A stretch of 64,000 bases of DNA from Symbiodinium sp. CCMP2592 (Eukaryota; Sar; Dinophyceae; Suessiales; Symbiodiniaceae), in contig CAJNDT010000326.1 of assembly GCA_905221615.1 (NCBI GenBank), forward strand, positions 62,001 to 126,000, given 5' to 3'. A program made the translations under genes and the position numbers. Below are positions 45,227 through 64,000 of this stretch, in pieces; within the stretch, counting starts at the first letter, position 1, and the number at the start of each line of letters is the position of its first letter. The notes beneath the pieces were generated by a model that saw only the letters and a list, made by a program, of their open reading frames with translations, searched no databases and was not told the origin of the DNA.

Positions 45227-45788
45227 ATCAACCAGGAAACCATGCTCTGTCGTAGGTCCATAGGGCGTCGGTCTGCCTGGAGAGGAGGTCGCCTGGGGTC
45301 CATAGCTGATAGTCTGATAGTCTCGCTCCGATCGATACGAGATCGTCTCTGTAGGAGAGACTCTGGCGTGGTCGGTGATTGGAAAACATCATGCACAGGA
45401 GTGCGGGGGCCATGGCTGATGGTCTCGCTTCGATCGATGCGGGCTCGTTTCTCCTCGAAGGTCTCATTCTCGGCCGGGCTGAAGCTCGGATGTGTCGCCG
45501 GTGTTGGTGTCGTGGTGGCACCAGACGGGGTGCCGGGTCTGTCTGAAGTAGAAGGCACGGCGGTGGTCGTTGTGGCATCCGGTCCGCCATCTGGATCAAT
45601 TGAGGGGTCATCATCCAGGCCCTCGCTGTCCGTCCCTTCACCTTCTTGGGGCACAGGAGTATTGGCCGCATCTGTAGTCGGGGTGCCTGCTGCAGGTGGG
45701 CCACCGTGGACCAGGAAAATTGCCATGGGCGTCGGGTATGTCACCACTGCTTGGTATGCTGGGCCACGAAGCGCTGGAAGGCGATGAG
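45226..45788 (-). pseudogene. Copia integrase-RT linker, 3' side of the insertion
   Basis: Low-complexity Thr/Pro-rich linker. The frame open at the insertion junction reads SPSSASWPSIPSSGDIPDAH; a shift near 45.7 kb leads into the frame with GTDSEGLDDDPSIDPDGGPD and two repeats of ARIDRSETI/SRIDRSETI. The junction frame is the same as that of the integrase C-terminus on the far side of the insertion. Confidence 0.7.
45781..45788. repeat. Target-site duplication, left copy
   Basis: GCGATGAG directly abuts the left terminal inverted repeat; the identical octamer directly abuts the right one at 61581-61588. Confidence 0.95.
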
Positions 45789-45818
45789 TATGGTCTTGCC
45801 TGTGCGCCTCGGGTTCTA
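45789..45818. repeat. Left 30-bp terminal inverted repeat
   Basis: Begins TATGGTCTTGCC and ends CGGGTTCTA. It is the exact reverse complement of 61551-61580, 30 of 30 bases. Similarity beyond base 30 is weak. Confidence 0.95.
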
Positions 45819-46547
45819 GGAACCCCAGAGCTTTTGGGCCCGAAATCGACCTGAGGTTCCGGGAAAAGAGGGTCGCAGCTTGTTTTGTGCGCATAATCGG
45901 AAAAATCATATGTCTGGGGCATCGATTTTGGGTGCATACATCACACTGTGCGTTCGGAAAATCCCATTCTGGTGGTTCTAGACATGGTACACTCAAAACC
46001 GAACTGGATCATCGCAAGTCATGGTAATTCCGCTCAACGGGTACACGTTGCGTGCTTTTGGCTACTGTGTTGTGTTTTGCATGTTTTCGTTTGAAACACT
46101 AAACAAAGTCGTTGCAGAGGGCGTTTAATTAGATTTGTTCTCGACAGCGACTCGAACATACATATGGAGTGAAAATGTTCACGCCTCTCATTCCTCGGCT
46201 CGTGCCTACATGATGTGCTTTTCGACAGAACAGACGTCCTATCCATACCAAAACCTGCCGCACGGCGGTCGGGTGAGCTTACGTCTCAGAACGGAATACA
46301 TAGGCCTTAAGTTTTAAGCTGAAAATATAAAACTACAAAAACATAAAAGAAACTACAACCTTCCAACTTCAATCAACACTCAACCTAGCATGATGTCATT
46401 TTTTCCAGCCAGCCGCCACTCCACACACCCAAAAACATATAAAGCTGAAACAACTAAAACCCTGCACCACCCCTCAACCCAGCATGATGCCTTTTTCCTG
46501 TTCTCGCTAGCCAAAACTGTCTCAAATCGTTGAAACGACCGACGGTC
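45819..46547. other. Left subterminal region of the transposon, non-coding
   Basis: A/T-richer than the flanks (for example GAAAATATAAAACTACAAAA near 46,320), with no ORF I would support. Such regions often hold transposase binding sites; two copies of an AAACT-AAA-CCCTGC/ACAACC-like motif are visible but not convincing as a repeat. Confidence 0.5.
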
Positions 46548-47060
46548 TCATGCGACCTCATCAGAGGCTGCCTTTTCCTCCTCTGATCCTGAGGAAACAG
46601 TCTGAGGTGTAAAAAGCGGTGTGTCCATAAGCCGCCAGTCGATTTCGTGGCGCACTTCTGCTCGCCGGGTGTGCTTTCCAAACAATGTCGTCAACCCATC
46701 TGCAGTGACCAGCCCGAAAGGGTTCAGTTCACTGCAATCACTGCCCGATGAAGCATGACGCTTGAGCTGGGGCGAGGCTTGACTCTGCTCCGTGGGGCCT
46801 CGCTTCTTCGAAACTTCCACGCTGAGCCGAGCAGTCAGGTAGGCATTGTGATCTTGAAGCAGTGTTTCAGAAAGCTTCAGCTCCTTGTTCTCTTCCTTTA
46901 ACTTCTTGTTTTGATCTAGAGCCTCTTTCAGATCCAGATCCTTGCAAACACTGTCCCAGTCTTCAAAATTTCGACGAATGCCCCGCTTCAGGAGCCCCTC
47001 GCCCTCCAAAGGCAAAGCAGCATCACGGGGGGTCGATTCAATCACTGTATCAGTGGGCAT
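46548..47060 (-). CDS. Leucine-zipper-like small protein
   Basis: An intact 170-codon ORF from the ATG at 47058-47060. The middle is a classic coiled coil (ALDQNKKLKEENKELKLSET with LLQDHNAYL after it, heptad Leu/Asn spacing), preceded by an acidic/polar start (MPTDTVIESTPRDAALPLEG). The C-terminal half is polar with EIDWRLMDTPLFTPQTVSSG. There is no basic DNA-contact region directly before the zipper, so a bZIP call is not justified; dimerisation or partner binding is inferred. It is the last ORF of the element in transcription order. Confidence 0.65.
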   Translation of the reverse strand: MPTDTVIESTPRDAALPLEGEGLLKRGIRRNFEDWDSVCKDLDLKEALDQNKKLKEENKELKLSETLLQDHNAYLTARLSVEVSKKRGPTEQSQASPQLKRHASSGSDCSELNPFGLVTADGLTTLFGKHTRRAEVRHEIDWRLMDTPLFTPQTVSSGSEEEKAASDEVA

Positions 47061-47177
47061 CTCTTCCGAAATGCGACCTCAAACACTGCACACCAGCACC
47101 TCAAAAGCCCCAAGCTTCGAGCCAAACATGCAACCCTTCGGATTGGCCACGAGCTACCCAGTATATGGGGTTTAAAG

Positions 47178-47225
47178 CCTAAAGTTTAGGGGCCAGGGTT
47201 GAGGGTTTAGGGTTGAAGGTTGCAG
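47178..47225. repeat. Telomere-like TTTAGGG tract (G-rich on +)
   Basis: Units of GTTTAGGG, GGGTTGA and GGGTTTAGGG. The complementary orientation occurs at 54,151-54,243 inside the same element, so the two tracts are in inverted orientation. Confidence 0.6.
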
Positions 47226-47525
47226 GCCGTGGATTGGGGATTCGGGCGGAAGGTTCAACACGCGAGCTCAGCAACCCACAGCACTGTCTCATTTTTGCGC
47301 AAGTCCGTTGCGGCGAATCAGCAAAATGTCGAGGATCATGGATCGGCATTGGGGGCAGGGTGTTCACTGGGCCTGGGTCCATGGAAAACAAATCCTGTTG
47401 TGCACGTGGGCTGCCAGGAAGGCAACAGGTTCAACAACACTGACCCAGCCTGCTTGTTTTGCTGATCTCTCCTCTCTCTCTCACTCTCCCTCGCAAGTCC
47501 TTGCCAGGGTGTGGTTCCTTACCTT

Positions 47526-49723
47526 TCACAGGTGTGTCAGATTCTGTCCTGGGGCAAGAGAATCGAGGTACTCCGTGAGCTTCTGAAGGCGATCCGTGAA
47601 GTTTGTTGGATCTTCTTGCTTCATCTGCTTCAGCCACTGAGAGATGGGAGCACTCATGGATTGCCGGTCCATCAGCAGTCGCACGGTGTGGCACTCGTGC
47701 TCTGCATACTCGAACCATACCGTGTCCGGTGGCACCACGAGGCAGCCCCCAGGGGCCACCTTCACAACCCACCCGGACGCGGTGGCCAAAGCTCTCACAT
47801 CATTGGCACTGCTTTTCTCCAGCTTACCTCGCTCCTCAACCAAACCCTTGCCTCCAAACTTACTGGCTGGGAATCCTCCCACTAGCATCTCTCCCTCGAT
47901 GCCCAACACAATCGTCGGAGCATTGAACTCCGTTCGCAACGCCAACCCAGCCGTTCCGTTCCGGCCACTCTCTGCCCAAATTGCAAAGAGAAGTGGTCCC
48001 GGAGGTCCTCCGGCAGTCCGGTGAAACCTTCATTCTGAAACATGTCCGGGTAGCATTTCTTCATCAGGTCGATCAGCTTTGAGTGGATTGTCTTCTTGCT
48101 CACCACAGCATTGCACGCCCGGGTGTTGGACCCTTTCATTTTTTCAGCCACCCAAGCTTTTTGCATACCATAATATTCCATGCCCTTGCAGGTTCGCAGG
48201 AAGGCATTTGCTCGTGCTGGGTCCAGCAGGCATGGCACCAGCTTCTTCACGAGGTTGGCCTCGTTGAAGGTGTAGTCCACCTGGCCACAGGTGCTCACGT
48301 CCTTCAGGGTCACCGCCAAGCTCTCGCTGAGCAAGGACAGTGGCCCACTGCCTCCTCCGTTTGCGATGGCCTTTGAGGCCTTGGTTTTCAACGCCGCTTT
48401 CTCTCGATCGTTGATCGCTTTCTTTGTGCTTGCCAACCACGTCCTCAGGCTCTTGATTGCCTCCTTCACAGCCACTACCTTCTCACCCTTGGTGTGGTAC
48501 TCCTTCATGTCCTCGGCAATCCTGAGCCTGATTCTGTGCAGGTCTTCGGCTGAGTCCTTGTTGTCCTCGAGGTCGTGCTGCTTTTGCTTCTCAAACAGGG
48601 AGATGTCTTTCTCCTGGCCCTGCAAGGCGTCCTTCACCTTCATCACCTTCTCTTTCATCTCCGTTTTCAGGGCCTCGTCTTCAGACATCGTAAGCTTCTC
48701 GGCCTCCTGCTGCAGGCCCGCCAGGGTCGTCTGGCTCTTGAGCAGGTTTTCCACCATAGACTGTTGTGCTTTCTGCGATGTCGCCTTCAGCGCCAATGTC
48801 TCTATCGGCACGGACAGCCCTTCCTCCTCAGCCTTCCGTTTCTTCTCTGCCTGCTCAGCCTTCTTGGCTTCCTGCAGGGCGACGGCTTGCTGGTACAACT
48901 CCTCACCCCGCTGCTCCTCCTGTTCTCTGATCTCTCCGAGATCTTTGCTGACAGTGAGCAGTGGGATGAGCTTCTCTTCCGAGCCCGGGCCGCTTTCAAG
49001 GTTTGCCGTCCTCTCCACTTCCAAACGCTGTCTTGCTCGCTTCACTCTCGAATCCCGCTCCTCCTCGTAATGCTGCAAGTCCTCCTGGGTCTGGATGTCG
49101 GCCCGCTGCCGCAAGGTGGTGCTGAAGCCGTGGTTCTCTCTTGCCCGAACCTCGACGCCACCGAACTCGTACATGCAAACCTCGCCCTTCCGCAGGATAG
49201 TTTGGCAGTTGGGGTCCTTCAACTTCTTGTTCCAGAGGGCCTCGCACTCTTTGAGGTTGCTGCACGTTTTCAGTGTCATCTCGATTTGAGCAAATTTCCG
49301 GAAAGGAATATAATGGTCGAGGTCGTCAGTGATGTTGCTGGTCTCCTTCTTCTCCTCCACAACACCGACGGCCGAGGAAAAGTTACGCTTCTTGTTGCTG
49401 TCTTCCATTGCCCTTGTCGCCTTCTGCTCGCAGTACCACTGCACCTTTTCCTCCGGTGTTTTTTTCCTCAAATCGTCCTTGATTTGAAGAGCTGCCAATC
49501 GCTTGGCACGCTGTTCTTCCGTTTCCGCATCCAGATGCTTGGGCTTGGCGGACATCCTGGTGAGCCACCTCTCGGTGGCTTGGCATCCGTTGCATGCCCT
49601 CAACAGAGGGTTCCTTCCTGTAGCACAGGAACAGGTCATTGTTGTTGGTTGCTTGCACTTCTGGCAAACCAGAGGAGCCGGCTCCCCCATTACTCCACTG
49701 GCAGACGAACCCGGCGCTGACAT
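47526..49723 (-). CDS. Coiled-coil protein with N-terminal Cys cluster; one frame break near 47,990
   Basis: From the ATG at 49,723 (MSAPGSSASG) the frame has a Cys cluster (VCQKCKQPTTMTCSCATG followed by RNPLLRACNGCQ) that could bind zinc, then a long Lys/Glu-rich helical region with strong coiled-coil character (EKLTMSEDEALKTEMKEKVM and neighbours), then a more globular part (NEANLVKKLVPCLLDPARAN; TIHSKLIDLMKKCYPDMFQN). Near 47,980-47,995 the signal moves to another frame (-1 relative) that continues AIWAESGRNGTAGLALRTEF, IVLGIEGEMLVGGFPASKFG and ends at 47,526 (LDSLAPGQNLTHL). A single-base change, sequencing error or ribosomal shift would join them; no classic slippery heptamer is evident. 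Function unknown. It lies just downstream of the methyltransferase. Confidence 0.75.
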
Positions 49724-49735
49724 TGTGCAACACAA

Positions 49736-50155
49736 CCGCAGACCAGGATCTCAGGATCGCGAACACACCAAAATCTCTGGAGCCACAAAGGCCACACCAT
49801 GGTCCGACAGTGTCCCCACCCCACCCCACGGCCACACGCAACCAAACACCGCCATCAACAACCCAGCACTGGCACCCTGCACCCACGAAAACTCCCGAGA
49901 TCACCCACACCCAACACCCCCTGCCCACCCCCAAACCGACCAACCCCTAAAACCCAAGCCAAATCCCCTTCCTTTCTGTTGCTAAAGCTGCTCTGGTGAA
50001 TTCCACCGAATTGCCGAATTGGCTCCTGTCACAGGTCGGACAGTCTAAACACTTCCTAATTAACGGTTTCAGTTCGGTGCCTTGCCACAACAGCAGTGGC
50101 GAACTGCGGCGACGTTTTGGTTCGAAGCCGACGCAGTGGCTGGCTGTTGTCGACA
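49736..50155. other. Intergenic, C/A-rich
   Basis: ACCCCAC/CCAACACCC-rich DNA between the coiled-coil ORF and the methyltransferase ORF; no additional gene seen. Confidence 0.6.
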
Positions 50156-51646
50156 TTAGGTATCTCCACATCCACGGCCCGTGCACGTTTCAAGGTGCCG
50201 CCCGGCCAAGCCAATGTGGATCTTGCATCCACCTGCCCGTCCACGAGAACACCCGAATCCTGACCGTCGTCGCTTGCTGCCTGTTTCTCCGGGTTCGTCT
50301 CCGAGGGGATCATGTTCCGCCCGAATTGTGGTGTCAGGTCCTGGGGAACGAGAACACCCGAATCCTGACCGTCGTCGCTTGCTGCCTGTTTCCCCGGGTT
50401 CCTCTCTGACATCCGAATCCTGACCGCCCTTGCTTGCTGCGGGTTCCTCTGGGTTCGTCACTGAGGGGGTCATGTTCCGCAGTTCTTCCACGGAGAGCCT
50501 TTGACTGTGGCCAAAGGGCAAGCCACCATTCTTCAGGGCAGACTCCAGCATTGGCAGAACCATGGTAGCCACGTGGAGGGGATGAAACGCATTCCCTGTG
50601 GCTTGCATGGCATTGGTCTTGCTCTTAAATTTCAAGGTGTCCCTGTCGCTGTGCCCTTGGAACCTGAACCTTTCCTCCAGGGTAATGAAGCGGTGCAAGG
50701 AATGTCGGTACCATTCCAAGTTGCTTGTCACGTCTTCACACTGGAGCAGAAAGAGCCCGGGACCTCCGGTTCGCAATGGAGGCAGCATGCCGTAAAGGAC
50801 CCTGCTGCTAAACTCCAGCAAAGGGTTCCTGTCCAGCTGCATCACAGCAATGGTCCCTGTCTTTCCTTCTTCGGCATCTGCGACAATCTTGTTCCAGTAC
50901 GCAGCAAGGTTGCACCTCATCCGTTTTGCAAGCTTGCATGGATTGAGCGGTGCTGCTCTTGCATCCAGCAGACTGGATAAAGGAATTTTTCCTCCCAGGT
51001 CTGCCGAGGTCAAGGCTGGGGGTAGGCTGTGGCACGGTGGCACACAGTCCAACCTCAACCCACGGATCCAAACCCGCTCTCTCTGCTGGGGGAAGATCTC
51101 ACTCAAACAATGCTTCTGGATCTCTATGCAAAAGAAAGGCAAGCAAACTTCCAAACGCCGCCTCAAACTGGCCAAGTAGTTGGTCTTGAACAGATTCGCA
51201 CAATTCTCTATTGCAAAACAAACCAGCATACCCCGCCATCCCTGCTGGATGATCCATGACACGACGGTTTCAAAAGCTTCACATCGATCATCCACGATCC
51301 CAGCCTGGTGGCCCGTGCCAGCCCAGGGCTGGCACGGGGGCCCTGCCAGGATGCACTCAGCATCCGGCACGGAAGACAGATCCATCGAGTTGATGTCTGC
51401 CTCCGGTCCAACCAGAACTTGCTCAAGTCCCTGGACACCTTCTTTTCGCAACACATCGTAGTATGTGCGAAACATACTGTGATTGTCGCATGCCAGCACC
51501 GGTGCATACGGGGCTTCTGCAATCTCGCACAGCCGTCGCATGCCGCCGATGCCGACACAAGGCTCCAGAATTCGGAGAGGCCGTTGCAACACTCTGAGGG
51601 CAAGCCCTGCACGGTAGCATGCCCCTTGTGTGGTGTTGCTGTCCAT
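50156..51646 (-). CDS. C5 DNA (cytosine-5) methyltransferase
   Basis: From the ATG at 51,646 (MDSNTTQGACYRAG) a 496-codon intronless frame has the complete motif series: I LEPCVGIGG at 28-36, IV AGPPCQPWAGTG with the catalytic Cys at 105, VI FAIENC with Glu 147, VIII PQQRERVWIRG at 186-196, a target-recognition interval of about 120 residues, IX RFITLEERFRFQGHSD at 319-334 and X GNAFHPLHVATMVLPMLE at 351-368. This is a free-standing catalytic domain, without CXXC, BAH or SNF2 modules visible. The C-terminal tail has a tandem duplication of EPGETGSKRRRSGFGCSR. The frame is open upstream to 51,856, but that segment lacks family similarity. Expected reaction: SAM-dependent 5-methylation of cytosine in DNA; the sequence context methylated is unknown. 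Confidence 0.92.
   Translation of the reverse strand: MDSNTTQGACYRAGLALRVLQRPLRILEPCVGIGGMRRLCEIAEAPYAPVLACDNHSMFRTYYDVLRKEGVQGLEQVLVGPEADINSMDLSSVPDAECILAGPPCQPWAGTGHQAGIVDDRCEAFETVVSWIIQQGWRGMLVCFAIENCANLFKTNYLASLRRRLEVCLPFFCIEIQKHCLSEIFPQQRERVWIRGLRLDCVPPCHSLPPALTSADLGGKIPLSSLLDARAAPLNPCKLAKRMRCNLAAYWNKIVADAEEGKTGTIAVMQLDRNPLLEFSSRVLYGMLPPLRTGGPGLFLLQCEDVTSNLEWYRHSLHRFITLEERFRFQGHSDRDTLKFKSKTNAMQATGNAFHPLHVATMVLPMLESALKNGGLPFGHSQRLSVEELRNMTPSVTNPEEPAASKGGQDSDVREEPGETGSKRRRSGFGCSRSPGPDTTIRAEHDPLGDEPGETGSKRRRSGFGCSRGRAGGCKIHIGLAGRHLETCTGRGCGDT
50248..50405. repeat. Tandem duplication at the 3' end of the methyltransferase ORF
   Basis: The segment ACCCGAATCCTGACCGTCGT plus CGCTTGCTGCCTGTTT occurs at about 50,253 and again at about 50,355, encoding the duplicated peptide at the methyltransferase C-terminus. 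Confidence 0.85.
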
Positions 51647-52078
51647 GGCGAAAAGGCTGCCGAGCTCCGTGCCCTTGTGTTGAACGAAAGCAGCAGAAGC
51701 AGCAAACAAAGAAGAAACGCAGGTACCCGTTGAGTTCCTGCCTACCGACAAACATGCACTCATGCACTGCATCGGGCACACAAACGCAAAATCTTCGAGA
51801 CCCCCAAACCTCACCTCAACCTCTGCATATGAGAAGCTTGCAGCAACCGGAAACATCCCAAGCTAGTCCACTGCCTTTGTTTCTTTTGCTTGCACAAGAC
51901 TGGAATCTCTGTCCATGCACGCTTCGAGAAGTCGAGAACCTATGATTTTGAGGCTTGACTTGCAGTCCTTGAAACTGCAAGCCCGCAAATGCAACTTGCA
52001 ACTTGCAAAGGCGGCAGTCCTGTGCCTCTGCAAAAACACTGCTCGCAAATTCTTGAACCGGCTGGCAGTGGTGGTGAA

Positions 52079-52309
52079 TCACTCCTTCCACCACTGCCAC
52101 CACCAGATTCCATCTGTTACTTTCCAGCACCATTTCCAGACCACTGCAGCTGCAGCCGCAGCTTTTGGAGCTGGGCTCCTGGACCGGTCATTGCCAGCAG
52201 CACTTCCTTCTGCCGGCATTGCAGTTCCGGTTGCCGGCACATTTGCAGGTGCTATTCTGGCTGGGCCCCTCGTAGGGGACGGTGTTGCCTCACGACCACG
52301 CTTGCCCAT
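52079..52309 (-). CDS. Short ORF with RS-like motif (uncertain)
   Basis: The ATG at 52307-52309 opens 76 codons starting MGKRGREATPSPTRGPARIA with SAAGNDRSRSPAPKAAAAAA later, ending at a TGA at 52079-52081. It lies between the (GGT)n array and the methyltransferase. It may be a first exon or leader peptide whose continuation I cannot find, since the frame downstream is Trp-rich and repeat-derived. Confidence 0.3.
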   Translation of the reverse strand: MGKRGREATPSPTRGPARIAPANVPATGTAMPAEGSAAGNDRSRSPAPKAAAAAAVVWKWCWKVTDGIWWWQWWKE

Positions 52310-52394
52310 GACGGTGGGGAGGCCCAACCAAAAAAATGAATTCGTTAGATATCTTGCCTTGAGAGGAATGCTTTCCCACGGTGATGGTGCAGGC

Positions 52395-52420
52395 ACTGGT
52401 GGTGGTGGTGGTGGTGGTGG

Positions 52421-52451
<31 letters not shown>

Positions 52452-53370
52452 GGTGGTGGTGCTAGTGGTGGTGCTGGTGGTGGTGCTGGTGGTGGTGCTG
52501 GTGGTGGTGCTGGTGGTGGTGCTGGTGGTGGTGCTGGTGGTGGTGGGTGGTGGTGGTGGTGGTGGTGGTGCTGGTGGTGGTGGTGGTGGTGTGGTGGTGG
52601 TGGTGGTGGTGGGGTGGTGGTGCTGGTGGTGGTGCTGTGGTGGTGCTGGTGGTGGTGGCTGGTGGTGGTGCTGGGTGGTGCTGGTGGGTGGTGGTGGTGG
52701 TGGTGGGTGGTGCTGGTGGTGCTGTGGTGCTGGTGGTGTGGTGGTTGGTGGTGGTGGGTGTGGTGGTGGGGTGGTGGTGGTGGTGGTGGTGGTGGTGGGT
52801 GGTGGTGGTGGTGGTGGTGGTGGTGGTGGTGGGTGGTGGGTGGGTGGTGGTGGTGGTGGTGGTGGTGGTGTGGTGGTGGGTGGTGGGTGGTGGTGGTGGT
52901 GGTGGTGGTGGTGGTGGTGGTGGTGGTGGTGGTGGTGGTGGTGGTGGTGGTGGTGGTGGCGGTGGTGGTGGTGGTGTGTGGGTGTGTGGGTGTGTGTGTG
53001 TGTGGTGGTGTGGTGGCGGTGTGTGGTGGTGTGTGGTGGTGTGTGGTGTGTGTGTGTGGAGGTGTGTGGCGGTGTGCAAAGGGTGTGTCGTGGTGTGTGG
53101 CGGTGGTGTGGTGGTGCGGTGGTGTCATGGTGTGGTGGTGCGGGGTATGTAGGGGTGTGTGTGGAGGTGTCAGGTGTGTGGGTGTGTGTGGGGTGGTGTG
53201 TGTGGGTGTGTGGGGTGGTGTGTGGTTGTGTTGGGTGTGTTGGGTGTGTTGGGTGTGTTGGGCGTGTGTGTGTGCGCGGGGTGGTGTGTGGTGTGTGTGT
53301 GTGTTGGGTGTGTTGGGTGTGTTGGGTGTGTTGGGCGTGTTGGGTGTATTGGGTGTGTGTTTGTGTGGGC
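52395..53370. repeat. (GGT)n array grading into (TG)n and TTGGGTGTG repeats
   Basis: About 580 bases of GGT trinucleotides with sporadic GCT and GGGT interruptions, then about 250 bases of TGTG-rich DNA, then several copies of TTGGGTGTG near 53,228-53,350. The long ORFs through it (poly-Gly, poly-Val, poly-Trp or poly-Pro/His/Thr) are repeat artefacts. Confidence 0.95.
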
Positions 53371-53790
53371 GGGACAGTGGCGGGACAGTGGCGGGACAGT
53401 GGCGGGACAGTGGCGGGACAGTGGCGGGACAGTGGCGGGACAGTGGCGGGACAGTGGCGGGACAGTGGCGGGACAGTGGCGGGACAGTGGCGGGACAGTG
53501 GCGGGACAGTGGCGGGACAGTGGCGGGACAGTGGAGGGACAGTGGAGGGACAGTGGAGGGACAGTGGAGGGACAGTGGAGGGACAGTGGAGGGACAGTGG
53601 AGGGACAGTGGAGGGACAGTGGCGGGAGGGACACGGGAGGGACACGGGAGGGACACGGGAGGGACACGGGAGGGACACGGGAGGGACATGGGAGGGACAC
53701 GGGAGGGACACGGGAGGGACACGGGAGGGACACGGGAGGGACACGGGAGGGACCGGGAGGGACACGGGAGGGACACGGGAGGGACAGGGA
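53371..53790. repeat. 11-bp minisatellite with three successive unit variants
   Basis: Exactly 14 copies of GGGACAGTGGC (53371-53524), 8 copies of GGGACAGTGGA (53525-53612), one reversion to GGGACAGTGGC (53613-53623), then about 15 copies of GGGACACGGGA (from 53628), with one ACATGG variant and a 1-base deletion. The sharp blocks suggest local expansion of each variant. Confidence 0.95.
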
Positions 53791-54150
53791 GGGAGGCACG
53801 GGAGGGAGGGAAGGGAGTGGAAAACGATCCTCAACGGAAGGGGGGTTGGTCCGGAAACACGTCCGGCCGGACAGGAACGTGTCCGGCCGGACGCCGGGAG
53901 GGACAGTTTGAAACACGAACCGGAAAGCAAACAACAACAAAATTACAACAAGCACAACCCTAAACCGCCTAAACACCGAACAACTGCCCGGAGACGTCTT
54001 TTTTTGCAGCAGCGGTCTCTGTGTCAAGCCTTTGGCTGGTCAGGCTGGTCTGTTAGCCGTTGTGGCTTTAGGTCGCTGCCCACACTCTCTGAAGCCCGTG
54101 TGGCTGGAGGACTGCTGTGTTTTACGGCTTCTGGACCCTGTAAGCATGTG

Positions 54151-54243
54151 ACCCTTAACCCTAAACCTTTAACTCTGAACCCTCAACCCTCAACCCTAAA
54201 CCCTAAACCCTAACCAAGCTTAAGCCTTAACCCCAAACCCTAT
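54151..54243. repeat. Telomere-like CCCTAAA tract (C-rich on +)
   Basis: AACCCTAAACC, CAACCCTCAACCCT and CCCTAAACCCTAAACCC; interstitial plant-type telomere-like repeats immediately left of the hairpin element. Confidence 0.75.
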
Positions 54244-54253
54244 AAGCAAGCTT

Positions 54254-54383
54254 ACTTAGAGGTTCATGGGACTTAACTACGGTTATAATTAAGGTAACTA
54301 TACTTATAACTAGTTATATCCCCAACTGAGGCCCAACTAAGGTACTTATAACTGTAGTTACTAAGTCCCATGAACCTCCAAGT
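54254..54383. repeat. MITE-like inverted-repeat (hairpin) element, about 130 bp
   Basis: Outer arms 54254-54275 and 54362-54383 are inverted repeats with one mismatch in 22 (ACTTAGAGGTTCATGGGACT against ACTTGGAGGTTCATGGGACT). Pairing continues inward with AACTAC[G/A]GTTATAA, so the whole unit can fold into one long imperfect hairpin. It is A/T-rich compared with its surroundings. No clear target-site duplication. Confidence 0.8.
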
Positions 54384-54453
54384 AACCCTGGACCCAAACC
54401 CTAACCAGCAGCCTCCAGCCTCACCAGCTGCTACTGTGTGGCTGTGCTGTGCT

Positions 54454-56041
54454 TCACAGCAACCTATCGCCCAAATCCAACAGCTTCTGGAAGACCGCTC
54501 TTCCCTGAGCTTTGCCTTCCTCGGAAGCCTGGGCAGCTTGGGCCAGGAGGTCCGTCGCCCCCGGCCCCGGAGCCGACGCCCTCTGTGGCTTCTGTGACCG
54601 CACCGGCACCGACGCAGCGGCCGAGCGGCTTGGGGATCGGCGCCGGCTGTCGAGCCGCCTCTCTCTCCTGGCCTCCCTGCGGCTGCGGGATCGCGACCGA
54701 AGCTTCACCTTGGGCGCCTTGGGCTTGAGATCGATGCCCGTCTTCCGGTCCTTCCGGTCGCCGCCCCCGCCCCGGTGCTTCACCCTTCGGTCCGTCCCGC
54801 GGCTGGGGCTCCTTTTCGTTTTCTTCCATCTTTCCCGATTGTTGTCCTTCGCTGCCCCGGCTGCCTTTGGCATCTTCTCCGTGGTGGGGCGGGTCGGGCG
54901 GTTTGGGGATTCCGCCGACTCGTCGGAGTAGTACGAGCTCTCCGACGACCCGGACCCGGGTTGGGAGCTGGAGCCGGAGTTGTCGGAGGAGCTCACTTCT
55001 TCAGCTTGCTTCTGGCCCCTGGCCTTCTGCTCCTCCATCTGCTGTGCCTTCCTCCGCGGCTTCATCTTCTCGCCAGTCGGGCCCGGGCCAGTACTGCCAC
55101 TGGCCCTGGCACCCTGGCCGCCCTGGCGGCCGCCCTGGCCCTGGCCTCGGCCTGAGGATGGCTCCGGTGGCGGCTGCTTGTGGCAGGACCATTGGTGCTT
55201 GTCCCGGTCCTGCAGGGCTTTGAACTCCTGGGAGCACCACTTACACTTCCAGGCTCGGAGCAGCTTCTGCTTCGGGCAGGACCATTCGTGCTGGTCGCGG
55301 TCGTGGGCCATGCACCACTTGCACGTGTGCGGCTTCGCTAGCACCATGCCTGCTGCTTTCGCAGCCCACTCCAAGCACTTGCTGCTATTTTGCAAGTGCA
55401 AGTGAAGGGTGCTCTTGGGCTTTCGTAACCAACATATCGGACATCGCACGTAGCCCGCCTCATCCTCCACCAAATCCACCACCTTAAACTGTGGTATCTC
55501 CCCGAAGCGCCCCCACACCGTCTCCTGTGTGGGGTTCACCCGGCTGCCACCGGGATCGCTCCGGGTGCGGCGGTGCCCGGTCCCGGCCCCGGCCGCCCCT
55601 TTCCGCACCCCTGAGCAGCTCCGGCTCGCTTCGGGTGCGGCGGCCCTTGCCGGGAGCCGGCATTTCCCGGCCCTGCTTTTTTTCTTTTTCAGATCTTGTC
55701 TCCTTCTTCTCTTTCTTATCCTTCTTGTCTTTTTTATCTTTGTGTGGCTTCTCCTTCTTCTCACGGGACCTACCCCTGTGCACACGGGCCGCAGGGGGCT
55801 CGGCCTCCCTTTCTTCTTCACGGCTGGCCTCCAGCTGCCGATCAGCCAGCTTTTCTTTCAGCTGTTCTGTCCTCTCTGCAGCTGCATGTGCTGCTGCCTC
55901 CGCTGGCTCTGTCCCGCCAAAGTCCGGCTCGGACTTTTGCGACGGCGAGTCCTTCTTTGCCTCCGACTCCGATTCTTCGGAATCGGAGACTTTTTGTGCT
56001 GGGGCACCACCCATTGGGCTTGGAGCTGGAGGCTCCGGCAT
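54454..56041 (-). CDS. Basic/RS-rich protein with three Cys/His fingers; frame break near 55.6 kb
   Basis: The start is proposed at the ATG at 56,041 (MPEPPAPSPMGGAPAQ). The first part is charged and disordered (DSEESESEAKKDSPSQKSEP; KDKKDKKDKKEKKETRSEKE). Near 55.55-55.65 kb the signal moves by one base to another frame, which continues QETVWGRFGEIPQFKVVDLV and has three Cys/His modules: CPICWLRKP...HLHLQNSSKC, CKWCMAHDRDQHEWSC and CKWCSQEFKALQDRDKHQWSC. The last two share C-x2-C-(x)n-H-x3-C. The rest is Ser/Arg-rich, ending QKLLDLGDRLL at 54,454. Nucleic-acid binding is the likely role. Confidence 0.65.
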
Positions 56042-56110
56042 CCGGCACCTGGCAGGGAACTCAAGGAAGCTCGCAAACCTAGAAACAGAAACACATGACC
56101 CTGCTGACAC

Positions 56111-56485
56111 ACAGCTGCGATCCTCGGTGCTAGCAAGCCCCAGCCACCACATGGTCAGACTCTTGCTGAGACTGACTGCAAGTGGCTAACGACCCACCGC
56201 CTGCCGAGGATGGAACAACTGCTGTATCAAAGCCTTGACACAGCTGCGATCCTCGGTGCTAGCAAGCCCCAGCCACCGCATAGTCAGACTCTTGCTGAGA
56301 CTGACTGCAAGTGGCTAGCGACCCGCCGCCTGCCGAGGATGGAACAACTGCTGTATCAAAGCCTTTACACAGCTGCGATCCTCGGTGCTAGCAAGCCCCA
56401 GCCACCGCATAGTCAGACTCTTGCTGAGACTGACTGCAAGTGGCTAGCGACCCACCGCCTGCCGAGGATGAAGCAGCTGCTTTAA
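56111..56485. repeat. About 129-bp tandem repeat, 2.9 copies
   Basis: Units start at 56111, 56239 and 56369 with ACAGCTGCGATCCTCGGTGC; spacing is 128 and 130 bases. Each unit contains GACTGCAAGTGGCTA and CGCCTGCCGAGGATG. The array sits in the gap between the transposase-like ORF and the finger-protein ORF, where a promoter for the latter would lie. Confidence 0.95.
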
Positions 56486-56809
56486 CAAAACCCCAAACCC
56501 ATAAACCCTTCAAACAAAACGAGAACCTTAACCTTGCAAACCCCAACCTGCCTGCAACGCCGCCCCGGGCCTTCAAGCCCGTCAAGCCCCCGGCCCGGCC
56601 TCCGGCGAAGGAGCCAAACAGCTACGGACGCAAGGTGCATGCAGTAAAATAGAAAGTGAATACACTTGAAATAATCAACTCGCTCACCTGGACAACAATG
56701 CAGCCGCACTGGAACATGTCATGAGTGTAGGGCTTTGCTTTGTGCACAAACATGTCATGAGTGTACGTTTGTTTCCGACAAATGCACCAATGTCCGACTT
56801 CCACGAACT
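56486..56809. other. Intergenic
   Basis: No ORF supported. A short direct repeat around AACATGTCATGAGTGTA at about 56,712 and 56,748 is visible just after the stop of the long ORF. Confidence 0.5.
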
Positions 56810-59800
56810 CTACAGTCCCAGAGACTGCCGCTGCTTCATGCTACGAACAGCTTCAGAAGTGGGATTGTGGCCGACATGCTCCGCAGTCGTGCGAAACCGC
56901 TGTGCCGCAGAGGCCCAGGTCAACAACCAAGCAACACAATCTTGGATACTAGGGTAATCAGTCACGAAAACATAGCGACGACATTGTCCTTTGTGGGCAG
57001 CACACCCACAGGCAATGAAAGCCCGACGACGCCCAGACTGATGTGTAAAGTTGTCGAAATAAACCGTAAGCCCTTCAAGCCCAGGCACTCGGGATTGCAC
57101 GGGCTTCTCACCCGGCATCTCGATTTGCAATTGCATGGGCGGCTCCAATGCTCTGGGGCGGGCGACACGGGACTTTGGCTCGCTGCCCTGCTTTCTCTTG
57201 CGGGGCCAAGCGAACTTCATCGTCTGTTCCAGTGTCCACTCCCCAATCCCCGTCAAATCTTCCTTTGTCAACAGAAGTTCGTAATACGCACTGCTTCCAC
57301 AATGCGAAATTTTGCTCAGGTTCCCGGGCTTCTCGAAGATTGTTGCTTCAAAAGCAAGAGCTCTGAAGTGAAACTCGGGTCTGCTCAACATGTTGCCTGG
57401 CAGCTCTCGAGCCTCATCTTTGTGCCGCCACTCAAACGTTTTTTTCCTACGCTGGCCAGGCTTCCAGTCCTGCATCAGCAGCAGTTTAAGCCAAGAGAGC
57501 TTGTTTCTACCAGCTGAGCTCTGCATCTGTGGCTCGTGGTCAGCCAAGGACACTGGATCCGTCAAAGTGACAACACCTCTGACTTGCATCTTCTCCGTCA
57601 GTGACAGTTGCAACTCTCCGAAATCGTCCTCCCTGACTTGCAGGATCCCTTTCTCTGAAAGCGATTGTGCTGCCGCAATACCAAAATAGGGAAGACCTAA
57701 TGCCGGAACAAAATTATCTGCTACCGCTCTTCGTTGGAACAAGGTGTCTACCAAGGCTTGCTCAAGATCTGACATCACCATGGTCGCAGAAACGTCAACC
57801 CCTTTGTTTTCAGGAACTACAAGCTCCAGTTCCTGCCGCTCCCTGTCTTCCTCGGCCAAGTCGCAAAGCATGTCCTCGTCTGAGACAACAGCAGGCAGTC
57901 GCAATGGTGCTGCTTGCACACCTGTGGAGCTGTCTAACAGCTCGGCCTGTAGCTTGACCTGCAATGATGTACATTGAGGCAGCCAAACGACACAGGCCGA
58001 AGACATCATCTCGAGACCTGCCTGAGTAGCCACAGCACTCAGATCCAGATCGTGTTTCCGGACACTGGTGTACGAAACACGGGGCTGTTCGAGGTCTTCA
58101 AGGCTGACCTGCAAAAACCTGATGCACTGAAGGACATGTCTGTTCTTAACACTGCCGACACCTAGCTGCTGATGCCGCCTTTCGGGCCGTGCATCCACGA
58201 CATAGCTGTAAACATGGTCTTCGGCCTTCCTAGCTACCACATCCTTCGGAATCAAAGCCTGTGCCATGTCCAGAAGTGTGTGCTTCCCCGCATCTTCCTC
58301 GTCCTGCCTCTCATCTGGCACAGATTTGGCTTGCAAGGTGTCAAAGAGCGCCTCGGGAACGCTAAAGACACAGCCTGTCTGCAGCTGGCTTTTCAAAAAG
58401 TCCACGATCATGAGGCCTTGGGCAGTGAGCTTGACCTCTCCATTCACCAGGGCTGCGGCTGATTTCAGTGCCTTGTCGGTGGCATCTCCCAACGCTTCAG
58501 CACTGGCCTCCGTCTCCCCTGTCTCCATGAAGTGGTCCGCCTCATTGTACCCGTACACACGAGACAGTCTGTACGCAAAGGTCTTCTGCCAGCACGATGA
58601 ACGTGGAAGCACATGTGACAAAAGCTCGACATCCAGACTTTGTTTTGGCCAGTTCTCGAGCAAAAACACGCGACCTACTCCATCATCCATGAATGCCTCA
58701 TGCTGCCTCCTCCGTGCCCGGACACATGCCATGGCCGGCCCAGAGAAGCGAAGTGTTCTCCGGGCTCCGATTTTGATCAGGACATGTTGCTTCTCTGTGG
58801 CTCGCTCCACACAAGAGCAAAAGGCTCGTTCCTGAATTTCTGCCCACGCCAAAGGGAAATCCTCCAGCTGTCGACCGTGTGGTCCGCTTGGTGAATTCGC
58901 AAAAGCCCACAGCTGCTCTGCCACACCTGTCGCGGCTGCACCTTGCCTCTGGAAAATGCCGTGCAGCAAAGCATCAACACGGCCCACAGCACACAACCTG
59001 TCATACTCCCGGAAACACTCCGCGACTATCTTTTTGCTTCCCTCAAGTGTATACCTCTCAGGCATGCAAAAGTGAGCATAAGCGCCTGCAAGCCGGAAGG
59101 GCAACTGCTGAAAGTAAACGGTTTTGGACTCGAACACGGTCGCCCACTTCTCCCGGGCCTGCTGGTCCATGAAAGCCATGGCTGCCACTTCCCGCGGCAA
59201 CCTCAAGACTGCCTCAGCATACCTGGGACTGGTGCATGCCCTGGCCTCAGCAAGGATGGTCTCTCCATAGCCCGCTGCAAGCACTGCTGTTCGCTTTCCC
59301 TTCCAGCAACATGAAATAGCTTCCCTGGCTTTCCGGGTTTTTGCTTCCTTCAGTTCACTCTCATGGCAGAAGCACCCTTCCATCCAGCGAGACCATCGCT
59401 GAACAAAACCCGAAAACATGAATGCCCACTCTGCATACGCTGAGTGAAAGGGATCCGTCAAGGCCTCCCCCACAGCATCGCAGAGTTGGGCTTCGGAACT
59501 CAGCAACTCCCGGTCCCAGTAATTCATCAGAATTGGACGTACATGCACATAATGTTTCAAGGTTTCGTAAAGAGACTCCCATCTCCAAGACAAAAGCTCC
59601 CCGTGATATGCCTGCACAGTGCTCTTCTCCTGTGCTGTGGCCGTAGCCATCATCCGATGCACCACAATGTCCCTGAAAGATCTGTCACGCAACAGTTTGG
59701 AGATGGCAGACAACTGTTTCTCGAAGGAATCCCAGCGAGGACACCCTTTGCATGACTCCTCCAAGGAATTAAACATGACGTGCATCAAGCCCAAATGCCT

Positions 59801-61216
59801 AAAGCTGTTCCAGAGCAATGCTTTTGAGGTGCCCCGCACCAGATGCTCAACATCCGGGTCGCCTTCAGCAGCAACAAGTGCTGCCAAAGCCTGCAGCTCT
59901 GCAGGATCTCCTGACACAGGCATCTGGGGTACCTTTCTTTCCGTCCCTTGATCCGAAACCCAGCCTTTGACCTGGGCACGATATGTGTCCTCGTAGTCAG
60001 GACCGTTCTCAAGTATGATTGCATGCCGCAGGCGGCAAGCCTTGAGAAAGGCACGTGTCTCGCCTCGACCTAAAGTCGTGATCACCATAGTCCTGAACTC
60101 ATGGGTGAAACCCTTCCAAGGGCACGCAGAAGCCTGCACAGGGACACATCTTCGAATTGTCTCCTCTGTGGTTGCCAAATATTCGTAACCTGCTTGGGGC
60201 GAGGCATCCATCGACAGGTAACGAGCCACTCGCACCTGGTCCCCTGCAACTTCGCTACGCATGAGCCTTCTTCGAAAATCCATGCTCAGCAAATCCAGCT
60301 TGAGCATCCACTTTCGCACTGTCGCAAAGTGGGGGAGGCTGCCCAAAGCTCGCTGAAGCATACCCTCGTCCACTGACCCCAGAAAAGGGTTCAAGAACTG
60401 AACGGCACATGATAGCACCGTTCTCATATCTGCAGCAAATTGCAACGAAAAGTTCATGCGGAGCAAACTCAGCTGTTGCGATGGGCTAAGCTTATCCTTC
60501 ACAGGCTGAACCTGCACAGCCAGAGCATTTGGTGGCTCCCCCACTGGCAAGTGCAAGGATTTCGCCACAGAGACGGGTGTGCAGAAACTTCTGTTTGCAT
60601 CACCATCAGGATTCTCCGACAAGAAATGCAAACTTCGAGGCACTCGGATAAGCCATGGCCTATCAAAAGATGCATCCACAAGACGGCCTCCATCAGCTGC
60701 CGCCGCCGCACCTGCTGCACCTGGGCCTGCAGCATTTCTGTTCAAAGTGCCGCTGCAGCGGCCACCTGACTGCTTGCATGTTTGAACAATCTCCGGAGTT
60801 GCTGTACAGACCCTCTGGAGCTGCTTGCCCGGAAACTGCAAGCGAGTCATCGCAATGGGCTGGCTGAATGTGAACTGTTTCTCCACTACCCATTCACAAA
60901 ATTTACACTCGTGGGCGGTGGATGAGGCATAGCCGCTCGACCGGCTCGGCACGCTGAACTTCAGCTCGTTCCAAGCCTCTACCTCCTGAGTCAGGAGGCC
61001 CGTGTGCATGCGACCCGGCAGATATTTCTGCACAGCACTAATTTTGCACGCCATCCGGATCTCGGCTCCTGCCGGCCGCCTGGCATCTCCCCCCGCGGGG
61101 ACTTCGTCGCCCGTATACAGCAAAAGCCATTTGGGCAGCTGTGCTTTTCCAGCTAAAACGCCCTGCCCAGCCCGGCCGCTGCACAAGTCGCTTGGGATTT
61201 CGATCACAGCATTCAT
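56810..61216 (-). CDS. 1468-residue protein with candidate DDE/RNase H-fold transposase core
   Basis: A single uninterrupted frame from the ATG at 61214-61216. The N-terminal quarter has a Cys group (ECKFC at 103-107, then C137, C147, C154) that may be a zinc finger. The middle has three conserved-looking acidic positions in transposase-like contexts: D337 (RYLSMDASPQAGYEYL), D422 (GWVSDQGTER) and E547 (LLSWRWESLYETL), with H479 and N483 (GLMHVMFNSLEE) between, as in RNase H-fold transposases. The last 600 residues are of unknown role and end with a Cys/His segment (FIACGCAAHKGQCRRYVFVT) plus WLLTWASAAQRF. The length exceeds that of typical hAT or Mutator enzymes. The assignment rests on motifs and on the flanking TIR/TSD; the superfamily is not identified. 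Confidence 0.7.
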   Translation of the reverse strand: MNAVIEIPSDLCSGRAGQGVLAGKAQLPKWLLLYTGDEVPAGGDARRPAGAEIRMACKISAVQKYLPGRMHTGLLTQEVEAWNELKFSVPSRSSGYASSTAHECKFCEWVVEKQFTFSQPIAMTRLQFPGKQLQRVCTATPEIVQTCKQSGGRCSGTLNRNAAGPGAAGAAAAADGGRLVDASFDRPWLIRVPRSLHFLSENPDGDANRSFCTPVSVAKSLHLPVGEPPNALAVQVQPVKDKLSPSQQLSLLRMNFSLQFAADMRTVLSCAVQFLNPFLGSVDEGMLQRALGSLPHFATVRKWMLKLDLLSMDFRRRLMRSEVAGDQVRVARYLSMDASPQAGYEYLATTEETIRRCVPVQASACPWKGFTHEFRTMVITTLGRGETRAFLKACRLRHAIILENGPDYEDTYRAQVKGWVSDQGTERKVPQMPVSGDPAELQALAALVAAEGDPDVEHLVRGTSKALLWNSFRHLGLMHVMFNSLEESCKGCPRWDSFEKQLSAISKLLRDRSFRDIVVHRMMATATAQEKSTVQAYHGELLSWRWESLYETLKHYVHVRPILMNYWDRELLSSEAQLCDAVGEALTDPFHSAYAEWAFMFSGFVQRWSRWMEGCFCHESELKEAKTRKAREAISCCWKGKRTAVLAAGYGETILAEARACTSPRYAEAVLRLPREVAAMAFMDQQAREKWATVFESKTVYFQQLPFRLAGAYAHFCMPERYTLEGSKKIVAECFREYDRLCAVGRVDALLHGIFQRQGAAATGVAEQLWAFANSPSGPHGRQLEDFPLAWAEIQERAFCSCVERATEKQHVLIKIGARRTLRFSGPAMACVRARRRQHEAFMDDGVGRVFLLENWPKQSLDVELLSHVLPRSSCWQKTFAYRLSRVYGYNEADHFMETGETEASAEALGDATDKALKSAAALVNGEVKLTAQGLMIVDFLKSQLQTGCVFSVPEALFDTLQAKSVPDERQDEEDAGKHTLLDMAQALIPKDVVARKAEDHVYSYVVDARPERRHQQLGVGSVKNRHVLQCIRFLQVSLEDLEQPRVSYTSVRKHDLDLSAVATQAGLEMMSSACVVWLPQCTSLQVKLQAELLDSSTGVQAAPLRLPAVVSDEDMLCDLAEEDRERQELELVVPENKGVDVSATMVMSDLEQALVDTLFQRRAVADNFVPALGLPYFGIAAAQSLSEKGILQVREDDFGELQLSLTEKMQVRGVVTLTDPVSLADHEPQMQSSAGRNKLSWLKLLLMQDWKPGQRRKKTFEWRHKDEARELPGNMLSRPEFHFRALAFEATIFEKPGNLSKISHCGSSAYYELLLTKEDLTGIGEWTLEQTMKFAWPRKRKQGSEPKSRVARPRALEPPMQLQIEMPGEKPVQSRVPGLEGLTVYFDNFTHQSGRRRAFIACGCAAHKGQCRRYVFVTDYPSIQDCVAWLLTWASAAQRFRTTAEHVGHNPTSEAVRSMKQRQSLGL

Positions 61217-61550
61217 TGGGTGAAACTCTAGCTTGTTCGCTTGATAAAAAGCAGCGAAAACACCTTTTAAGGTCGTCTTGCATTGTCGTCTTAATTCTAC
61301 GTTAGAACCAGCCGAAAAAAAATTAAAGTAGCATGTAATAGTGACACCCCCCCAGCCCCACCATTAAATTGTAGTCACCAACGAGTTCTGGTGTTGCAAC
61401 AGCCAAGTGGATCCGAACTGAGCAGAATTTTTTTTTCAAACCCAAAGGTCGATCGCAGCCCTCCGAAATTGGCACTTTGGGGGTCGACCGAACTTTGAAT
61501 TCAGAAACGACGAAAAAGTGCTTTCAGAGCTAAACCCCCTGAAATGGTTT
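61217..61550. other. Right subterminal region of the transposon
   Basis: Non-coding, about 330 bases between the long ORF and the right inverted repeat. It contains homopolymer runs (CCCCCCC near 61,347, T8 near 61,428) and would hold the promoter of the transposase-like gene; no TATA-type element is evident, as usual in dinoflagellates. Confidence 0.5.
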
Positions 61551-61580
61551 TAGAACCCGAGGCGCACAGGCAAGACCATA
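61551..61580. repeat. Right 30-bp terminal inverted repeat
   Basis: TAGAACCCGAGG at its inner edge and AAGACCATA at its outer edge; exact reverse complement of 45789-45818. Confidence 0.95.
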
Positions 61581-61588
61581 GCGATGAG
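61581..61588. repeat. Target-site duplication, right copy
   Basis: GCGATGAG, identical to 45781-45788. On the minus strand the duplicated bases encode part of a Thr-Ser-Ser stretch of the copia polyprotein. Confidence 0.95.
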
Positions 61589-62341
61589 GTGGGGCCCGCA
61601 GGCGGCTGTGGCGGTGGTTGTCCGTCGTCGTCATCATCATCCATGGCCTCATCATCCGAATGCGCCAAGTCTTCGCGGCGGCGCTTGCGGTTGGTCTTGA
61701 GGAGGTCGATGTAGACGGTAGCGCCGCGGTTCTGGACCTTCCTGACAAGTAAGTGCACGGCCGGGGCGTCCGCGGCAATGGTGTCCGACTCAAGGTCTGG
61801 TCGCACATGTTCCGGGGTTGCACGTATCAGCGCAGTGCCATGGACCAGCCAGTAGACGTTGGGCGGCTGTCCCGATCCCTTCTGAGACTCGGTCAGGACA
61901 ACGGTGGCTGGGCCCTTCCATCGAATGCGTGGGCCAGAGCCAGCGGCTTCACGCCAGTAGAAGCACTTCTGACCAACCAGCAGGCGCGGGGGATCACCCC
62001 GATGCTGTCGTAGTAGAGCTCGTCGTAGGCGTAGATCATTGTCCGCCTTGACCACCGCGGTGGCGGCCCGCACTCGACACTCCATCTTGTGCTGGAAGGC
62101 TTCCGTGGGGTCGAGATGGCTGTAGTTGACGTTCGAGTCGAGGAGGCTCCCGAAGATGGAGGGCTGGTAGCCGAGCACCCATTGTGTGGGGCTGAAACCT
62201 CCTACCGACAGAGTTTGGTTCAACTGGGGACTGGGGAACCACGAAGGAGAGGGCCTCGATCAAGCTTTCCGTTCCAGTTGCGGGGTGGTCCTCCAAGTAG
62301 AGCTCCACAGCGCGACGTAGCACCTGGTGTCGTCGCTCCAA
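61581..62341 (-). pseudogene. Copia integrase C-terminal region
   Basis: The frame ending at the insertion contains VGGFSPTQWVLGYQPSIFGS, LLVGQKCFYWREAAGSGPRI and RWKGPATVVL, the SH3/chromo-like end of dinoflagellate copia integrases, then an acidic run (DDEAMDDDDDDGQPPPQ). The frame at 62,036-62,341 supplies the preceding helix (RRHQVLRRAVELYLEDHPAT). The coding frame runs directly into the right TIR, which interrupts it after AGPTSS. Confidence 0.85.
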
Positions 62342-62718
62342 CTGGGCCAGACGTTCATGCGCTCCCGTGGTCGGTGGTGTACCGCATCACCTCGTCGCTC
62401 CCCCAGGCTGTCCACAAAGAGGTTGGTGGGCGGCCCGAAGGTGCGTATCCATCCTCTTTCCAGAGCTTGCAAGAACTCAGCAGACGTCTCCCTTCGGAGC
62501 ACCCGAGCAGCCACATACCGCGTGGCAGCGTCCATCATGGTGAGGACTGGGGTGGTCTTGTCCAGGATCTGCAGCCAAGATGGTGTCCGACAGGAGGCGT
62601 TCGTTGAACCGGTATGTGGTACGGAGAGTCGTCTTCGGGACCTGGACCGGGAGCGCGAGCTTCCGGCATGTAGGGCACTGGTACTCCTCCGCTGTCTCCG
62701 TGACCAGCCTGGTGGCAC
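62260..62718 (-). pseudogene. Copia integrase core
   Basis: The frame reads TTPVLTMMDAATRYVAARVL and RETSAEFLQALERGWIRTFG followed by PPTNLFVDSLGE. This is the catalytic region of a retroviral-type integrase (second Asp in VDSLGE). The first catalytic Asp should lie near WLQILDK. Shifts near 62.5 and 62.35 kb separate it from neighbouring frames. Confidence 0.85.
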
Positions 62719-63981: not shown

Positions 63982-64000
63982 GGTGAAGACGGGGCCAGGT

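Follow-up and report, generated by a model that had tools for sequence, protein, structure and literature searches.

A 15.8-kb DNA transposon of Symbiodinium with a probable hAT-like transposase and a resident C5-cytosine methyltransferase

In contig CAJNDT010000326.1 of Symbiodinium sp. CCMP2592, a segment of 15,792 bp is framed by inverted repeats (positions 45789–61580 of the 64-kb stretch analysed here, hereafter the window). It raises the question of whether so long a segment is a complete DNA transposon and, if so, what moves it and what its other genes do.

Boundaries, copies and empty sites

An earlier note on this DNA had described the segment as a DNA transposon with perfect 30-bp inverted repeats and the same octamer outside both ends. 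On re-measurement, its ends and the enclosed length proved correct to the base. The left arm, TATGGTCTTGCCTGTGCGCCTCGGGTTCTA (45789–45818, plus strand), and the right arm (61551–61580, minus strand) are 100% complementary over 30 nt, and complementarity ends at base 31. The octamer GCGATGAG lies at 45781–45788 and is repeated at 61581–61588. With up to 3 mismatches allowed, the arm's initial 20 bases are found in the window at the two termini and nowhere else (expectation 0.00), and the chance expectation of a perfect 30-bp inverted pair in 64 kb is ~2e-9, with the octamer not yet counted. The element interrupts a host copia element, in which an RVT_2 domain is present, and the same target site was seen empty in two related copia copies of this genome, which have the octamer once.

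The earlier note had proposed a search of Symbiodiniaceae assemblies, a host group that fits, for further copies that share the ends but differ in their 8-bp duplications, for empty sites in related strains, and for deletion derivatives sharing the ends. Each of these was found, the empty sites in other copies of host repeats of the same genome rather than in related strains, and relatives with similar ends were found as well. The assembly holds three families, A (that of the window), B and C, all with ends of the form TATGG...CCATA. Family A has nine end places, six of which are paired; the end at C5225 was additionally paired via an end found by alignment, and the remaining two belong to a duplicated locus, C3447/C1180. 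At C3447 the left end is present twice with an identical flank, whose last 60 bases recur in C1180. In family B, 30 of the 39 end places are paired and nine are unpaired, and there are 14 long end pairs, mostly of 14.6–14.8 kb; family C has eight of 10 end places paired and four long pairs of 15.9–16.0 kb. Exact 8-bp duplications flank 21 of the 23 delimited end pairs, and all 21 are different; the two pairs with no duplication have flanks common to other copies. C717 and C4908 share flanks with other copies and reflect either mosaic structure or duplication in the assembly.

Three short versions of 2.0–3.7 kb retain both ends. For example, the one in C5225 has GAGGCAAG on both sides, which was counted as a duplication. 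Two of them, C3591 and C5225, can be aligned with the element at its ends and within or next to its satellite but nowhere else, and they evidently moved with no genes of their own, presumably by borrowing a transposase. The 15.8-kb element is thus a complete copy of a DNA transposon and is not solitary, and the group to which it belongs is mobile, as the further copies, differing duplications, empty sites and short versions attest. Sharp ends, empty sites and highly similar copies also make the system directly testable.

A composite or an assembly artefact, or a methyltransferase-bearing retroelement of the SymbioLINE/SymbioDIRS-Dnmt kind misread as a DNA transposon, could in principle produce some of these features. 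LINE and DIRS elements with a DNMT gene are described from Symbiodinium (PMC5890265), and some copies are indeed mosaic or duplicated in the assembly (C717, C4908, C3447/C1180). However, the inverted ends are perfect, 21 duplications differ from one another and empty sites exist. A Pfam scan of seven frames of the element detected no reverse transcriptase, and RVT_2 sits in the interrupted host copia. As a general account this explanation is very improbable, since the multi-copy evidence speaks against it.

The transposase and its superfamily

The probable mover gene is the minus-strand frame at 56810–61216, encoding a protein of 1468 aa. The putative catalytic residues D337, D422 and E808 are conserved, with spacings of 85 and 386, and the best solved structures for the modest to weak predicted model are all of Hermes, a hAT transposase (PDB). 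The hAT-type D-D-E fold with a helical insertion can be recognized at the level of the fold only, because the model is weak. The 1468-aa protein has no Pfam match at E up to 1, and none of nine transposase family members gave a hit to any hAT model with E values of up to 10 admitted. The transposases of families A, B and C are about 47–48% identical to one another, and a fourth lineage, D (C785 and C726), is 34% identical, with a protein of 1551 aa in C785 (81195–85850). Each of the 20 long elements with delimited ends contains a match to the window's transposase. In the census of transposases, 32 of 288 candidates were scored, which makes its count a lower bound. The part of this protein in movement is well supported, and it would extend the hAT-like fold group past the detection range of the sequence models used here.

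In our reading these elements are hAT-like but divergent, and the methyltransferase is a resident gene of the group. From the octamer, the earlier note had listed hAT, P, Merlin and KDZ as groups with 8-bp duplications; of these, hAT alone gains positive support, at the level of the fold. Transposase domains of KDZ, P and Merlin had no Pfam match in the element's frames or in the nine transposase members, an absence compatible with any of the three. An 8-bp duplication, as in 21 of the 23 delimited pairs, is a hAT feature. The hATC dimerisation and BED finger models did not match the transposase, whose sequence is highly divergent. The terminal consensus of hAT elements is YARNG, and families A, B and C end in TATGG instead. 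Their target preference is nTnnnnAn; here the strict pattern occurs in 4 of 21 duplications, and T2/A7 make up 19 of 42 both-strand counts, a modest bias.

The other named candidates are another 8-bp superfamily (KDZ/Zisupton, P or Merlin) or a divergent IS3EU element. The TATGG..CCATA ends fit the terminal pattern of IS3EU, given as TAYGG..CCRTA, and Zisupton is reported to make 8-bp duplications (PMC12730594). However, the duplications of IS3EU are given as 6 bp in the same source (PMC12730594), not the 8 bp found in 21 of 23 pairs, there is no Pfam match to any KDZ, P, Merlin or IS3EU transposase, and Hermes supplies all of the best solved structures. Such a placement is therefore rather improbable, and the hAT-like reading is the one retained below.

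The methyltransferase and the accompanying genes

The earlier note had counted five long co-oriented ORFs, which it did not itemise. Long minus-strand frames are present at 56810–61216, 54454–55821, 52079–53776, 50156–51856 and 47882–49735, and if these are the five intended, the third is the antisense of a satellite (52397–53794) and probably no gene. This satellite is TGG-rich with an 11-bp unit, GGGACAGTGGA, and yields long low-complexity ORFs on both strands; the 11-bp unit was also found in a family B element. The conserved, co-oriented set consists of the transposase, a zinc/basic protein, a C5-methyltransferase, a coiled-coil protein and a small protein, and the gene order is common to the three elements whose interior was read through. 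Neither the methyltransferase nor the conserved 170-aa frame at 46548–47060 was mentioned in the earlier note.

Between the transposase and the zinc-finger-like/basic protein, repeat analysis found a 129-bp tandem repeat of 3 copies (56109–56489). The zinc/basic protein itself (54454–55821, minus strand) is a 455-aa frame, 297 aa from the first ATG, with stretches that match families B (30%, E 2e-16), C (37%, E 4e-14) and D (33%, E 8e-9). The coiled-coil protein (47526–49723, minus strand) has an N-terminal CxxC..CxxC and is split here by a frame break into frames of 613 and 120 aa, the tail lying in frame 47526–47888, in contrast to its unbroken homologues of 731 aa in family B and 718 aa in family C. 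Its model is of low confidence and has no significant structural match. The 170-aa protein (46548–47060, minus strand) has homologues at the matching place in families C (32%, E 2e-11) and B (34%, E 1e-5). The seven frames scanned with Pfam contained no dioxygenase, subterminal repeats were not above chance in the element, and no relict spliced leader (12-mer) was found in it.

The C5-cytosine DNA methyltransferase (50156–51856, minus strand, 566 aa) matches PF00145 at E 8.2e-11 and keeps the motifs GPPCQP, EN, RxRxWxRG and GNA. The catalytic PCQ and EN motifs are invariant in 9 sequences. In a sequence-profile comparison, the solved structures nearest to it were those of the bacterial enzymes HhaI and HaeIII. 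A bacterial source was considered, and no relative of the methyltransferase was confirmed in genome_contigs. As to a viral origin, the transposase, methyltransferase and coiled-coil protein have no confirmed relatives in viral_contigs, the exact 30-bp end is absent from the same set, and the viral structure library gave no match at E ≤0.001. In all, 77 methyltransferase places were counted; the other 50 of these lie at 31–44% identity, most near 37–38%, and among them at least C785 and C726 were matched with a transposase.

Are the methyltransferase and the other genes mere passengers of a transposon with a hAT-like fold, having no role in its movement? Selection on the methyltransferase is weak among close copies, its match has stop codons in four of the 20 delimited long elements, and the short versions C3591 and C5225 evidently moved without it. 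Against this, all 20 long elements have the match, in some cases a partial one, and it is free of stops in 16, across three families whose transposases are about 47–48% identical. Both listed lineage D transposases (C785 and C726, 34%) have a methyltransferase at the same place, about 4 kb downstream, and in all four lineages the single copy that was read retains the catalytic motifs. We therefore consider the passenger explanation unlikely.

Proposed mechanism, significance and comparison with known systems

The account that we favour, and hold to be likely, is that of a group of ~15-kb Symbiodinium DNA transposons in which a hAT-like transposase moves the ends and the resident methyltransferase marks the element's own DNA. 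The 1468-aa D-D-E transposase would pair and cut both ends and join them to the target with an 8-base stagger. The methyltransferase would mark CpGs of the element itself, such that a newly moved copy would resemble the CG-methylated genome of its host. Alternatively, self-methylation could serve the transposition reaction, so that binding and cleavage of the ends take place in a specific methylation state. As for the zinc and coiled-coil proteins, they may assist in keeping the long nucleoprotein complex together or in protecting it.

Cytosine methylation is usually viewed as a weapon of the host against transposons. Here, the element group itself carries the gene for a methylation writer, in 20 of 20 long copies and in lineages whose transposases are 34–48% identical. 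A methylating enzyme encoded beside the probable mover gene points to an element that itself may write the chemical marks with which cells often silence elements of this kind. Symbiodinium is described as having unusual CG methylation across most of its genome (PMC5890265), and DNA transposons, like retrotransposons, may now be counted among the possible sources of this methylation. Yeast is described in the same study as having no cytosine DNA methylation (PMC5890265). We offer more tentatively, as a possibility we would not yet favour, that these elements form an undescribed superfamily of giant dinoflagellate DNA transposons, in which the methyltransferase is core and ancestral and installs CpG methylation on the element during its life cycle, and which may have contributed to the near-total CG methylation of the host genome or taken advantage of it.

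With hAT elements, such as Hermes of Musca, the group shares a D-D-E core of RNase-H type in which a long helical insertion separates the second D from the E, 8-bp duplications, short inverted ends, the best structural match and the modest T2/A7 bias. It differs in that sequence similarity to hAT models is undetectable in its transposase, in transposase length (1468 aa in the window, 1551 aa in C785), in its TATGG ends, in a size of ~15 kb with five genes, and in having the strict nTnnnnAn in 4 of 21 duplications. IS3EU shares the ends TAYGG..CCRTA, with duplications of 6 bp there and 8 bp here (PMC12730594). The retrotransposons SymbioLINE-Dnmt and SymbioDIRS-Dnmt3 (de Mendoza et al. 2018, PMC5890265) are likewise mobile in Symbiodinium and equipped with a C5-methyltransferase gene; as described there they have a reverse transcriptase, whereas the present element has inverted ends and 8-bp duplications. 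The fungal DNA transposons with TET/JBP genes, which include hAT7, KDZ and IS3EU (Kojima 2025, PMC12730594), also pair a DNA transposon with an enzyme acting on cytosine methylation, and in some of their families gene order is conserved. Their hosts belong to another kingdom, and the enzyme that they are reported to carry is an eraser, a dioxygenase, whereas that of the Symbiodinium element is a writer, a methyltransferase (PMC12730594).

The insertion site and ends of the window element

The window element (45789..61580) lies inside a Ty1/copia-type retroelement with frame breaks of its own, which it splits into two parts (43706-45780 and 61589-64000), the left one carrying an RVT_2 reverse transcriptase frame on the minus strand (43706-45226). 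When the flanks are joined, copia-like frames continue across, the reading frame shifting close to the join. Two further genomic copies of the copia region, 84% and 83% identical, are uninterrupted at the insertion site and have the octamer only once, GTGATGAG and GAGATAAC where the window has GCGATGAG. These copies are the empty site of the element; the earlier note had proposed looking for empty sites in related strains, and here the site is present twice in the same genome. The inverted ends, flanking octamers and length claimed in that note were each exact when checked in the sequence, and the pair of inverted ends is, by computation, far above chance expectation.

Copies, short versions and related families

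In the 1.098-Gb assembly, whose contig C326 includes the window, ends of the window element's own family (A) occur at nine places, allowing up to 3 mismatches. A long copy, 15,265 bp and partly N, was found at C3447:282447-297711 (duplication AGGATTTC). Two short versions were also found, one of 3.66 kb with both 30-bp ends perfect (C3591:517301-520963, duplication CTTCTGAC) and a diverged one of 3.0 kb (C5225:149753-152755, duplication GAGGCAAG); in both, alignment with the window element is confined to the ends and to the satellite (its TGG-rich/11-bp repeat tract) or sequence next to it. C3447 has a second left end, whose 1-kb flank is identical and shares its final 60 bases with C1180, and because of this identity these were counted as a single insertion that the assembly has duplicated. 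Damaged or partial copies lie on C4918 and C5184.

Relatives of the transposase at 47-48% identity are also present, many, among the matches listed, with frames of 1472-1487 aa; 32 of 288 candidates were scored, so that counts are at least the values given. The upstream regions of ten of these relative transposase genes were aligned. Compared with two reference copies, homology stops at TATGGT and the flanks then differ in seven of eight cases; in the eighth, C1333 against C5151, it is lost earlier, but C1333 nevertheless starts with the same end.

There are 39 places with family B ends, which give 14 long pairs, 12 of them 14,616-14,774 bp in length, and one short pair of 2,026 bp (C4959). 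Exact 8-bp duplications flank 12 of the long pairs and the short one. Because the flanks of the two exceptions, C717 and C4908, are identical to those of C1333, C2244 and one another, these pairs are probably mosaics, from assembly or recombination. The flanks common to these four contigs could reflect recombination between elements or assembly joins. The remaining two of the 14 long pairs, both with duplications, span 27.6 kb (C3635:662539-690152) and 36.3 kb (C5052:1565503-1601840), and therefore have extra DNA inside. Family C ends, at 10 places, give four pairs of 15,901-16,009 bp, all with exact duplications.

Over the three families, 21 of 23 pairs have 8-bp duplications, and no two of the 21 octamers are alike. 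One host repeat was hit at two positions, by the C18 and C3635 elements, each copy being uninterrupted at the other's site. The copies with the same ends and different duplications anticipated by the earlier note thus exist (window, C3447, C3591 and C5225), as do short derivatives keeping both ends (C3591, C5225 and C4959).

Over the terminal 470 bp on the transposase side, four of the six B copies that were compared are 100% identical, as are the remaining two, with 75% identity between the groups; the outer 458-463 bp at this end are 100% identical in all four C copies. The window element and C3447 share ~99.1-99.5% identity in most comparable gene stretches, and 91% at the methyltransferase C-terminal tail. 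We take this as a sign of recent movement.

The methyltransferase within the conserved gene set

The 566-aa methyltransferase of the window matches PF00145 (E 8.2e-11) and, used as a profile, HhaI (E 8e-13). The motifs GPPCQP, EN and RxRxWxRG are retained in it and eight relatives, and, with small variation, in lineages A-D (one copy each). The order and orientation of transposase, zinc/basic protein, methyltransferase, coiled-coil protein and small protein genes are alike in the window, C18 and C852. In lineage D, with 34%-identical transposases, C785 matches this arrangement as far as it was read, to the methyltransferase; each of the two listed transposases (C785 and C726) is followed, ~4 kb downstream, by a methyltransferase in the same orientation. 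The 11-bp satellite has the same position in C18 and is absent from that place in C852. A 129-bp unit, in three copies at 95%, lies between the transposase and zinc/basic genes of the window element (56109-56489).

All 20 long delimited elements (two A, 14 B and four C) have both a methyltransferase and a transposase match. The former is interrupted by three TGA stops in four of them (C298, C717, C2244 and C3336) and partial in C3447 and C3635; the latter is limited to residues 574-1467 in C298, C717 and C5319. The genome has methyltransferase matches at 77 places, and 20 of the best 27 are inside delimited elements, which make up 0.03% of the genome. Six of the other seven are on contigs also carrying a transposase match, family end or damaged copy (C3447, C4918, C2732, C1943, C606 and C229), the transposase match being ~25 kb away in C606 and ~52 kb away in C229. 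For the seventh, C5113, none of these was among the matches listed. For these elements, mobility with 8-bp duplications is shown, as are the ends they have in common, the short versions and the conservation of the gene set.

Methyltransferases like those of lineage D, with 777-aa open frames, similar scores and ~38% identity to the window's, occur at more than a dozen places, including the window's own contig (C326:172579-173853). They may represent a further lineage of this transposon group, and a more abundant one. Among the listed homologous proteins, P0008 (transposase) and P0016 (methyltransferase) have contigs of equal length, 1,071,201, as do P0005 and P0022 (coiled-coil), 269,140, which suggests a common contig in each case but does not prove it.

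Methylation and comparison with known elements

hAT-like transposases cut the paired ends and then join them in a staggered manner. The methyltransferase would act on the DNA of its own element. The CpG observed/expected ratio of the window element is 0.63, or 0.69 minus the satellite, against 0.81-0.94 in the flanks (0.87-0.94 in the flanking copia); its terminal non-coding parts, at 0.99 and 0.92, are not depleted. Depletion in the body agrees with methylation and decay, but comes from one element and is no proof. Because dN/dS between close copies is 0.56-0.58 over most of the protein and ~1 in the tail, and stops are found in 4/20 copies, a strong present need for the methyltransferase appears doubtful.

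In those parts of the open-access literature on dinoflagellate, Symbiodinium and Symbiodiniaceae transposons that were covered, no DNA transposon of this description was found among the matches listed, nor with DNA transposons carrying a methyltransferase as the topic; a Repbase entry is possible. The word "hAT" is absent as a whole word from the text of a giant-transposon review (PMC6431247). According to a study of hybrid assemblies of these genomes, their DNA transposons show little divergence and could be active (PMC8045281).

A comparison can be made with the DNMTs of LINE and DIRS elements, described in a report that also refers to marine viruses whose DNA transposons encode DNMTs (PMC5890265). 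There, the Symbiodinium genome is mostly CG-methylated, and retrotransposon DNMTs are able to methylate CGs de novo, although the SymbioLINE enzyme tested was unable to do so. It was suggested that new DNA, if methylated, may escape being treated as foreign (PMC5890265). By analogy, the same logic would fit the window element as well.
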